The translations under genes were made by a program, and so were the position numbers. The notes under the pieces were generated by a model, which was not told the origin of the DNA, ran no database searches, and saw only the letters and a program-made list of their open reading frames with translations. This document shows, piece by piece, positions 1 through 2,317 of a stretch of 64,000 nucleotides of DNA; position 1 is the first letter of the stretch; every line of letters begins with the position of its first letter. The DNA comes from Acidobacteriota bacterium. Its GTDB lineage: Bacteria; Acidobacteriota; Vicinamibacteria; Marinacidobacterales; Marinacidobacteraceae. Location of the stretch: assembly GCA_009840635.1 (NCBI GenBank), contig VXNL01000094.1, forward strand, positions 1 to 64,000, in the 5' to 3' direction.

Positions 1-177
1 CGCCGGCGGCGGGGCGGGCCTCGCCGGTTCCGGTTCCGGGGCGGGCGGGGCCTCCTCGACCGGCGCCGCTTCTTCAACAGGCGCGGGGACCTCCTCGCCG
101 CCGCCGCAGCCTGCGAGCGTCCCGACGGCCACCAGAAGCAGCAGAGCGGCTCCCGGCGGCATCGACCGCCGGGACAC
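1..177 (-). CDS. Lipoprotein, C-terminus beyond window edge
   Basis: Reading right to left from a GTG at 177 gives a positively charged n-region (S-R-R-S), a hydrophobic run rich in Leu/Ala/Val and the lipobox L-A-G-C, followed by three Gly and a Glu/Pro/Ala-rich linker that runs off the window. This is a typical lipoprotein signal and tether, so the product is predicted to be an outer- or inner-membrane-anchored periplasmic protein. An ATG at 162 is in frame but would lose the charged n-region, which is why I prefer the GTG. It begins 5 bp after the stop of the flavin reductase gene and is probably the last visible gene of the same redox operon. The functional domain lies outside the window, so no activity can be assigned. 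Confidence 0.6.
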   Translation of the reverse strand, partial: MSRRSMPPGAALLLLVAVGTLAGCGGGEEVPAPVEEAAPVEEAPPAPEPEPARPAPPPA

Positions 178-181
178 CGCG

Positions 182-700
182 CTAACCCGACGAATCACTC
201 GGGGCCCCGCCCAGTTCACGATACCCCCGGTCGTAGTAGAGGAGGGGTGCGGCCTCGCTCCGCTCTACCCTGCCCTCGGTCACCCTCCCGATGAAAAGCG
301 TGTGATCGCCCTCGGCGTAGGCGCCGACGGTGGCGCACTCGAGCCAGCCGATACAGCCGGCCAACTGCGGCGGATCGCCCGATCCGTGCGCCCTCCGCGC
401 GTCGGAGAACGGAGCCGCGAACTGGGCTTCCGAATCCAACCCCGGCTTCGCGAAGTGCCCGGAGACCCCGGCTTGGTCGGAGGCGAGCAGGTGGACCCGG
501 AAAGCGCCCGCGGCGATCGCGCCGTGGGCCCGCGCCGAGTTCATGATCGAGACGAGCACCAGCGGCGGGTCGAGGCTCACCGGGATGAAGGAACTGACGG
601 TGATTCCCCTCGGTCCCTCCGGGCCGCTGGCGGTCACCACGGTCACCAGTTGCGGGGCGCGGCGCATCAGGCCGCGGATCGCGGAGCCCGGGTCGCTCAT
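182..700 (-). CDS. Flavin reductase-like FMN-binding protein
   Basis: A 172-residue protein of the flavin reductase-like domain family, a split-barrel FMN-binding fold. The N-terminal half has the family pattern: T-V-V-T-A followed by G-I-T-V-S-S-F near residues 19-40, then P-P-L-V-L-V-S-I and a S-A-R-A-H segment. Members reduce FMN with NAD(P)H, often to feed an oxygenase or a reductive partner. The ATG at 700 overlaps the stop of the upstream OsmC-type gene (ATGA), so the two are probably translationally coupled. In this context it may supply reduced flavin or electrons to the neighbouring peroxidases; that is inference. The substrate and partner cannot be read from the sequence. Confidence 0.8.
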   Translation of the reverse strand: MSDPGSAIRGLMRRAPQLVTVVTASGPEGPRGITVSSFIPVSLDPPLVLVSIMNSARAHGAIAAGAFRVHLLASDQAGVSGHFAKPGLDSEAQFAAPFSDARRAHGSGDPPQLAGCIGWLECATVGAYAEGDHTLFIGRVTEGRVERSEAAPLLYYDRGYRELGGAPSDSSG

Positions 701-1182
701 CCAGCCGGGGCCAGGTCGCGCGTTTCCTCGAAATCAGCCGTATACGTGATCTCCACGCTGCCCTTGAGAGTGTTGGCGAGCGGGCAGCCACGTTCGTGGA
801 AGCGGAGGGCGCGTTCCGCCTCCTCGCGCTTCCCGGCCGGCAACGCCACCCGGTACCGAATCCGGATGGCGCGCAGCGCCATGACCCCGTCCTCGTCCAC
901 GATGTCGCCCTCGACGTCCGCCGAGAGCCGATCCGGTTGGCTCGGAATGCCGCGTACTTCGAGCGCCCGCCCGAACGTCCCGACCATTCAACCGCCGGTG
1001 GCGGCCACCACGTAGTCGAGGGTCGCCGGCAGCTCTTCCGCCGGGGTTACGCCGTAAAACGCGGCAATCCCACTGTGGACGCCGAAACGGACGGGCTCCT
1101 CGAAGTCCTCCAGGAACGCCTGCCGGACCGGGCCGGCCTGCTTGACGACCCGGGCGTGGCAGGTGTGGACCACTCGGCTCAT
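697..1182 (-). CDS. OsmC-family peroxidase, candidate selenoprotein (in-frame TGA read as Sec)
   Basis: Read through one TGA (988-990), this is a 161-residue OsmC/Ohr-like protein. Residues 1-64 give the N-terminal beta part ending T-L-D-Y-V-V-A-A-T-G-G; residue 65 is the TGA; residues 66-161 continue V-G-T-F-G-R-A-L-E-V-R-G-I and carry the second family cysteine in H-E-R-G-C-P-L (Cys133). OsmC proteins use two cysteines, and the first normally occupies the position of this TGA at the start of the long central helix. Neither half is a complete domain alone. A hairpin with a G-rich loop lies 13-30 nt after the TGA (separate entry). The ATG at 1182 overlaps the stop of the DsbD-alpha-like gene. 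OsmC proteins reduce organic hydroperoxides. Conventional callers would produce two ORFs, 988-1182 and 697-987. A pseudogene is the alternative, but frame, domain and helper Cys are all intact. Confidence 0.82.
958..975 (-). promoter_or_regulatory. Candidate bacterial SECIS hairpin of the OsmC-type gene
   Basis: On the minus strand, TTCGGG (975-970) pairs with CTCGAA (963-958), including one G-U pair, around the loop CGGGCG; the loop ends can also pair, leaving GGGC. The loop starts 19 nt (or 20 nt) after the TGA at 990-988. Bacterial SECIS elements are described as a stem with a small apical loop having G in its first two positions, about 16-37 nt after the UGA. Position and loop fit that description. 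The G+C-rich background makes hairpins common, so the in-frame TGA at the catalytic position is the stronger evidence. Confidence 0.6.
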
Positions 1183-1715
1183 CGCGATTGTCCGAAGATC
1201 TCGGAATGCAGCTCCTTCACTGGAGCCCCCGCCCTCGCGGTCGGCAGCGACAACTCCAGAGTAGTGCTCGTGGGCGCGCTGCAGGCGTTGTCCGTGCAGA
1301 GCTGGTAGCGGACCAGCACTTCGGCGTCCGCGGACCGGCCCCGCTCGAGAACGGAGGTGACCGGAATCCGGATGGCGACCGTCCCTTCGTAGAGGTCGTA
1401 TTCCCCGAGTCCCGAGAGATCGCGCCGAATTGGGGGCGGATAGGCAGGCTCGCCGCTCTTGAAGGCTCCCCCCTCGACGAGTTCCACCACGGTGGCGGTC
1501 GGGAAGGCCTCTTCGGGGCCGTAGAGGTGGTAACCCTCGTCGAGTTCCGCGACCACTGCCACTTCGAGTTGATCACCGTGCCGGACCGGAGACTGCGAAG
1601 CCACCAGTTCGAACTTCGCCGCGTTCTCCCAGTCGGGAATCATCGGCGCCTGACCGGCGGCGAGACCGCCGGACAGGGCCAACAGCAGGGCGGACAGCAT
1701 GAGACGGCGGTTCAT
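1179..1715 (-). CDS. Secreted DsbD alpha-domain-like protein
   Basis: A 178-residue protein with a clear signal peptide (M-N-R-R then a Leu/Ala-rich core, cleavage near residue 21). The mature part resembles the N-terminal periplasmic domain of DsbD: a Y-H-L-Y-G-P-type segment near residue 63 and, near the end, the motif Y-Q-L-C-T-D-N-A-C (Cys140 and Cys145), matching the redox-active cysteine pair of DsbD-alpha. The transmembrane and thioredoxin domains of full DsbD are absent. In DsbD this domain hands reducing equivalents to periplasmic thiol proteins. Lying between two peroxidase-type genes, it may shuttle electrons to them (inference). The start at 1715 is set by the signal peptide and an AAAGGAG Shine-Dalgarno 9 nt upstream; the longer upstream reading is a shadow of the peroxiredoxin gene. 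Confidence 0.75.
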   Translation of the reverse strand: MNRRLMLSALLLALSGGLAAGQAPMIPDWENAAKFELVASQSPVRHGDQLEVAVVAELDEGYHLYGPEEAFPTATVVELVEGGAFKSGEPAYPPPIRRDLSGLGEYDLYEGTVAIRIPVTSVLERGRSADAEVLVRYQLCTDNACSAPTSTTLELSLPTARAGAPVKELHSEIFGQSR

Positions 1716-1747: not shown

Positions 1748-2317
1748 TCAGGACCCCCCGAGACGGGAGATCTCGGTGAGAATCTCGTTGGGCGGCGTGC
1801 GGTCGCGGTAGTTCACCCAGACATTGACGAAGCGGACGACACCGTCCGTGTCCACGATGATGGTCGCGGGATGGGGAATGCCCTCCCGGTCCGTCCCGTC
1901 GTGGTCCGGGTTCGGGATGCCGTATTCGCGGATGACCGGGCCTCCGTCCACCAGGATCGGGAAGGACCAGTCGTTCTTCGAAAGCCACATCAGGGTGTCC
2001 CCTGTCCCGTACTTGGAAATGCCGAGCACGGTCGTATTCGCCGCCTCGAACTCAGTCAGGGATCCTTGCAACTCGCCGAGTTGCGCAATGCAGAATGGTC
2101 ACCAACCCCCGCTGCGGAAGAACTCCAGGACGACCGGTCCGCGCTCCAGCAACTCCGAAAGACGGTACGAAGCGCCGTGGGCGTCCTTCAGCTCAAAATC
2201 GGGCGCCGGGTCACCGACGTTCACGGTGGGCGTATCGGTGTCCTGCGCGGATCCGGTGGCGCCGAGACCTGTGGCCAGACCGGCTATCAGGAGCGTGGAA
2301 GCTGAGAATCGAGACAT
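1748..2317 (-). CDS. Secreted peroxiredoxin-like protein, candidate selenoprotein (UPFC active site)
   Basis: Read through one TGA (2099-2101), this is a 189-residue AhpC/TSA-family protein. Residues 1-25 form a signal peptide. The thioredoxin-fold domain starts G-D-P-A-P-D-F-E-L and runs to V-V-L-E-F-F-R-S-G-G-W; then Sec73-Pro-Phe-Cys76, then I-A-Q-L-G-E-L. Relatives have C-P-F-C (R-G-W-C-P-F-C) here, so the TGA replaces exactly the first catalytic Cys. The C-terminal part continues with L-G-I-S-K and P-A-T-I-I-V-D-T-D-G, as in the family. A perfect 7-bp hairpin follows the TGA. The ATG at 2317 is preceded by TAAAAT at 7 nt, suggesting leaderless initiation; an ATG at 2326 is the alternative. 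This is the first gene of the redox operon. ORF callers would stop at the TGA and lose the C-terminal 116 residues. Confidence 0.87.
2068..2084 (-). promoter_or_regulatory. Candidate bacterial SECIS hairpin of the peroxiredoxin gene
   Basis: On the minus strand, GCAACTC (2084-2078) and GAGTTGC (2074-2068) form a perfect 7-bp stem with loop GGC. The loop begins 22 nt after the TGA at 2101-2099. This fits the bacterial SECIS description (G in the first loop positions, apical loop about 16-37 nt downstream of UGA). It lies inside the coding sequence, as bacterial SECIS elements do. Confidence 0.7.

Follow-up and report, generated by a model that had tools for sequence, protein, structure and literature searches.

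A putatively secreted peroxiredoxin-like UPFC selenoprotein and its probable DsbD_N-like partner in Acidobacteriota

Introduction

Peroxiredoxin-like (Prx-like) selenoproteins with a UxxC motif in a PF00578 domain were described from the Sargasso Sea in 2005 (PMC1088965), and appear in the GOS paper as 'Prx-like 1' (PMC2398784). The preliminary description of the locus analysed here had treated peroxiredoxin-like selenoproteins as an already known class, in agreement with these two papers. The GOS paper also mentions Prx-like 3, a fusion with an unknown domain whose three Cys include a CxxC (PMC2398784). A second known family is formed by the OsmC-like selenoproteins, with the motif UxxT (PMC1088965, PMC13188914). 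A 2026 review (PMC13188914) lists a 'Prx-like thiol:disulfide oxidoreductase', OsmC-like selenoproteins and small selenoprotein operons.

The window, by which we mean the whole stretch of 64,000 nucleotides that was analysed, contains a Prx-like gene with the motif UPFC. Its product has the combination that characterises the Prx-like UxxC selenoproteins, namely a PF00578 domain with UxxC in place of TxxU, and resembles them further in having a bacterial SECIS-like hairpin and Cys homologues. Unlike them, it has the particular motif UPFC and a signal-peptide-like start, and it is split from a DsbD_N-like domain to which it is fused in related bacteria, in an operon with an OsmC protein that itself contains selenocysteine (Sec). 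It shares its fold with typical peroxiredoxins (AhpE, Bcp/PrxQ, AhpC and the TxxU Sec peroxiredoxins) but has neither their PxxxT/SxxC motif nor their catalytic Arg. Its best NCBIfam match is NF040769 (SelL-related redox protein/SelL), which is likewise AhpC/TSA-like; at 38.6 bits it scores well short of the curated threshold of 120 bits, and membership of SelL was rejected on that ground.

The OsmC protein of the window is similar to the described OsmC-like selenoproteins in its fold, in having Sec at the first conserved Cys, and in retaining the second Cys. It differs from them in its motif, UMVG, and in sharing an operon with the UPFC gene, and at 23 of 95 bits it lies below the NCBIfam OsmC_like_Se cut-off. 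The third protein of interest, which has a DsbD_N-like domain with a Cys pair and is encoded beside a thioredoxin-superfamily oxidoreductase, recalls the N-terminal alpha domain of DsbD and the periplasmic clients of that domain. Unlike in DsbD, the domain here is a lone, putatively secreted one (or is fused to the oxidoreductase), its Cys pair is C-x4-C, and a separate CcdA-like gene encodes the membrane part.

Our literature search, which covered freely accessible main texts, found no description of a UPFC/UPYC protein paired with DsbD_N, nor of a two-selenoprotein operon. The DsbD_N pairing and the two-selenoprotein operon therefore appear to be new, while the UxxC Prx-like and OsmC-like families were already known. 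Prx-like 3 of the GOS paper may be an earlier sighting of the UPYC/DsbD_N fusion.

Organization of the locus

The genes of the operon lie on the minus strand in the order PrxU, DsbD_N, OsmC(U), flavin reductase and PEGA lipoprotein, an arrangement that bears out the operon first proposed. The features, with the evidence for each, are as follows.

1748..2317, minus strand: Prx-like UPFC selenoprotein gene, 189 aa (translation with TGA=U, PF00578, AF2 model and Foldseek)
2099..2101, minus strand: in-frame TGA assigned to Sec73 of WUPFC (TGA in close relatives, Cys homologues, selA/B/C/D)
2068..2084, minus strand: SECIS-like hairpin GCAACTC-GGC-GAGTTGC (pairing in Sec versus Cys genes, compensated pairs)
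1179..1715, minus strand: gene for a lone, putatively secreted protein of 178 aa with a DsbD N-terminal-like domain and the motif YQLCTDNAC (PF11412, Cys-pair conservation, fusions)
697..1182, minus strand: OsmC-like selenoprotein gene, with an ATGA overlap with the DsbD_N gene (PF02566, conserved order)
988..990, minus strand: in-frame TGA assigned to Sec65 of OsmC, GGUMVGT (TGA in close and distant relatives)
958..975, minus strand: SECIS-like hairpin of osmC, TTCGGGC-GGGC-GCTCGAA (fold, conservation in genus and family)
182..700, minus strand: flavin reductase gene, with an ATGA overlap with osmC (PF01613, E 3e-39; conserved neighbour)
1..219, minus strand: PEGA-domain lipoprotein gene, 5' part, cut by the contig end (complete in relatives)

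Scans for promoters and terminators at the locus found nothing.

The UPFC gene and its product

On the minus strand, the reading frame of the UPFC gene opens with the ATG at 2317, closes with the TGA stop codon 1750-1748 (coding 2317-1751) and contains a single internal TGA, which places UPFC at residues 73-76 in the local sequence FFRSGGWUPFC. As initially described, this one TGA splits a peroxiredoxin-like frame of normal length: the PF00578 AhpC-TSA match (residues 34-163, E 6e-28, 97.7 bits against a cut-off of 26) spans both halves of the joined 189-aa protein. The extent then given, 2068-2317, takes in the gene only up to the hairpin; the whole gene occupies 1748-2317. Read by eye, the N-terminus is signal-peptide-like, MSRFSASTLLIAGLATGLGATGSA-QD, ending near TGSA-QD. 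This agrees with the secreted form proposed in the preliminary description, and we infer from it that the UPFC protein is secreted.

The structure was modelled using AF2. The single-sequence model was poor (pLDDT 36.6), and the model used here was built from an alignment. It has a pLDDT of 87.7 and shows a peroxiredoxin fold, for which Foldseek gave AhpE and Bcp as the best matches, with TM-scores by target length of up to 0.90.

Probable selenocysteine at the in-frame TGA

Sequence comparison indicates that the in-frame TGA of the UPFC gene is almost certainly read as Sec, as first suggested, with support from the Sec machinery, the conserved TGA, the Cys homologues and the conserved SECIS-like hairpin. 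selA, selB, selC and selD are all present in the host genome, with scores of 69.7 bits for tRNA-Sec(UCA), 494 for SelA, 297-316 for SelB and 245-248 bits for SelD. We note that SelD (G000:C62:55243-56181) carries a fused N-terminal pyridine-nucleotide-disulfide oxidoreductase domain. Such a fusion has been reported for marine SelD.

The comparison set comprised 149 relatives. TGA stands at this position throughout the genus (8/8 genomes, that of the window among them), in both other genomes of the family (2/2), and in G010 of the same order, making 11/11. Stops and frameshifts scattered elsewhere in the gene were sought in relatives and none was found: TGA occurs at exactly one site. In the wider class the motif is UPYC, or in other homologues CPYC, with Cys codons TGC/TGT. 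The expectation that Cys homologues align at residue 73 is borne out by the CPYC-type homologues, which have their Cys there and keep the second Cys. The aligned site in direct homologues is thus U or C; the Cys of L077-L105 is partly a matter of construction, since these loci were partly recruited by CPFC/EFFRSG patterns, which does not apply to the class homologues. A tree requires a minimum of four switches between Sec and the other states.

A SelA match is present in 44 of the 46 Sec-form genomes versus 2 of the 10 genomes that have only the Cys form (Fisher p 1.3e-6 from a hand-tabulated count, and only a guide because the genomes are related). The two Sec-form genomes with no SelA match, G088 and G113, are both incomplete or fragmented. 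Counting G062 as well, there are three apparent TGA forms with no SelA match (G062, G088, G113), which are either incomplete assemblies or real exceptions. Within the genus, dN/dS after the TGA is approximately 0.1-0.25, showing that the post-TGA half is under purifying selection.

The fragmented state of the host draft genome (3.58 Mb in 110 contigs, 92% complete) could be taken to suggest that the TGA arose through faulty sequencing or assembly, or that the gene is a pseudogene. However, the same TGA occurs in 11 genomes, which are independently named MAGs, and in the wider homologues; together with the dN/dS values and the covariation of the hairpin described below, this makes such an explanation extremely improbable. 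It could also be argued that translation does end at the UGA, or continues there with insertion of a different amino acid, and that the hairpin acts only by modulating termination. TGA is indeed an ordinary stop for the neighbouring genes, as noted from the outset, in the ATGA overlaps at the osmC and flavin reductase genes, but the full Sec machinery is present and co-occurs with the TGA form, and the replacement at this site in direct homologues is Cys and no other residue. We regard this explanation too as very improbable.

The SECIS-like hairpin

Downstream of the Sec73 codon lies the hairpin of seven base pairs with a GGC loop noted in the preliminary description, and the geometry given there is correct: 14 nt separate the TGA from the stem, which starts at the 15th nt, the loop begins at the 22nd, and the hairpin occupies +15 to +31. 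Of the seven pairs in the stem, the six outer ones form in every distinct Sec sequence (35/35) but in only 2/38 Cys homologues. If only genes coding for the same QLxEL are compared, these six pairs form in 34/34 Sec genes and 2/10 Cys genes. Two of the stem pairs vary on both sides, giving a covariation score above all 500 shuffles: in one, GC is replaced by AU via two synonymous changes (CAG...CTG to CAA...TTG), and in the other GC becomes CG, in L119. The proportion of paired cells drops from 96% to 12-49% when the stem partner is slid. Across the Sec genes the apical loop is GGC, GGT or GTN, so that the structure is a stem-loop with a G in the loop.

Taken by itself the hairpin is weak evidence, since about 5% of sequences that encode this peptide with randomly chosen synonymous codons contain a hairpin of 7 bp or more; it is the conservation across Sec genes that raises the hairpin above chance. 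The fold of the single sequence has z = 0.22, and its MFE structure differs from the hairpin. The case for the hairpin thus rests on comparison, as the single-sequence folding energy gives no support. From this comparison, the 7-bp hairpin fits a bacterial SECIS. An Rfam search around the gene returned only chance-level matches (snaR-A, 24 of 98 bits), which for that reason have no bearing on the SECIS.

One further locus, L134 (G059, C2), encodes a CPYC form in a genome with no SelA match and has kept a complete SECIS-like stem. Its appearance suggests that Sec gave way to Cys not long ago and that the hairpin is a relic of the Sec form.

The active site

In an alignment to AhpE of M. tuberculosis, Sec73 occupies the column of the conserved Thr/Ser of TxxC, and C76 that of the peroxidatic Cys. 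The same columns result with true peroxiredoxins from the same bacterial class, which were retrieved in the same search (AFSGTC, DDTPGC). The peroxiredoxin motif PxxxT/SxxC is therefore not found in the UPFC protein, Sec73 standing at its Thr position, and the catalytic Arg is not found either: the column of Arg116 of AhpE is occupied by Pro150 (HPATIIVD). Both R68 and R173 of the UPFC protein are conserved, and could be substitutes for the absent Arg.

The easy reading, adopted in the preliminary description, that Sec is at the peroxidatic position is therefore to be corrected, as Sec took the position of Thr. With Sec73 at Thr, C76 at the peroxidatic Cys, and Arg replaced by Pro150, the protein is best read as having a UxxC thioredoxin-like oxidoreductase site on a peroxiredoxin fold, and because Sec occupies the Thr position it probably follows a thioredoxin-like chemistry.

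Were the protein instead a true peroxidase acting through a thiol or selenol, peroxide would oxidise Cys76 (or Sec73), a Se-S bond would form, and the DsbD_N-like protein would reduce it. Peroxidase activity has to be considered because the fold is closest to the AhpE/Bcp peroxiredoxins, which are the top structural matches (TM-score up to 0.90), with C76 aligned to the peroxidatic Cys of AhpE; the operon mates OsmC and flavin reductase would also suit peroxide defence. Against this, the protein has lost both the conserved Thr, replaced by Sec73, and the catalytic Arg, replaced by Pro150, and we consider a true peroxidase rather unlikely.

The probable DsbD_N-like partner

The lone domain encoded next to the UPFC gene matches PF11412 with E 9e-13 (48.7 bits, gathering threshold 25). 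In other Acidobacteriota, of the wider class and the phylum, the UPYC/CPYC domain and a C-terminal DsbD_N-like domain form one polypeptide of roughly 350 residues. Taken by itself, the fused domain matches DsbD_N only weakly (Pfam E 2.5e-6 to 7e-4), and a profile comparison relates the stand-alone and fused domains with 95.7% probability. Slight variants aside, the C-x4-C pair (YQxCxDxxC) is kept in both split and fused forms, in an alignment of which one row (L062) is misframed.

Since the two domains form a single polypeptide in many Acidobacteriota, it is probably the DsbD_N-like protein that reduces the UPFC selenoprotein; no other clue to function is as strong as this occurrence in split and fused forms. 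A CcdA-like DsbD_TM membrane protein is encoded on another contig of the host genome.

The OsmC selenoprotein and gene order

The OsmC protein matches PF02566 (E 1e-12, 48.4 bits), and alignment to 1ukk places U65 on the first Cys of that structure, as expected of an OsmC selenoprotein. Its TGA is present in 11/11 close relatives, and the corresponding site is TGA in the distant homologues that were read; osmC homologues with an in-frame TGA occur in approximately 40 genomes of the class. The osmC hairpin is conserved in the genus and family, and less so beyond the family.

The order of the first four genes is kept in the genus, the family and G010, in the last with one extra small gene. This insert, between the DsbD_N and OsmC genes (L063 3329-3769), encodes 146 aa with no Pfam match. 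The four-gene order was not seen in the more distant loci looked at, which have short flanks. The PEGA lipoprotein, cut short in the window, is complete in relatives (PF08308, E 2.5e-25 in L054), and in some relatives an AhpD-like CMD protein (CEGC) is encoded downstream of the operon.

Proposed function

The explanation that we consider likely overall is a secreted UxxC selenoprotein of an uncultured acidobacterium, with a DsbD_N-like reductant and SECIS-aided UGA decoding. SelB and tRNA-Sec would decode the UGA at 2101-2099 as Sec, aided by the hairpin 14 nt downstream. The motif suggests that the attack most likely comes from Sec73 as selenolate, with Cys76 providing the thiol that resolves it. 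The UPFC protein would reduce an oxidised cell-envelope substrate (a protein disulfide, sulfenate or peroxide), and at the end of its cycle a Se-S bond would link residues 73 and 76. This bond would then be reduced by the neighbouring DsbD_N-like protein through its C-x4-C pair, with electrons that the CcdA-like membrane protein may supply. OsmC(Sec65) and the flavin reductase look like a cytoplasmic arm of the same oxidant defence.

More tentatively, and with slightly less than even confidence, we propose that the UPFC and DsbD_N-like proteins form a dedicated extracytoplasmic selenoenzyme-reductase couple, in which the lone or fused DsbD_N-type domain would be a specific Se-S reductant, and which with OsmC(Sec) would make up a two-compartment selenium-based oxidant defence across much of Acidobacteriota.

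For twenty years the Prx-like UxxC family has been known chiefly from its sequences; gene fission and fusion, together with operon conservation, now give it a probable redox partner and location in the cell. The results also indicate that ordinary gene callers would split selenoproteins which are encoded in many Acidobacteriota, mostly uncultured lineages among them. A search of IMG/VR found no relatives, and a search of plasmid records gave only distant homologues (<60% identity), most of those listed being annotated as peroxiredoxin-like family proteins. A different protein of the Prx-like family (FFRGHWUPYC), also with an in-frame TGA, is encoded in a genome of the same order (L066, G013:C157, 5817-6485).
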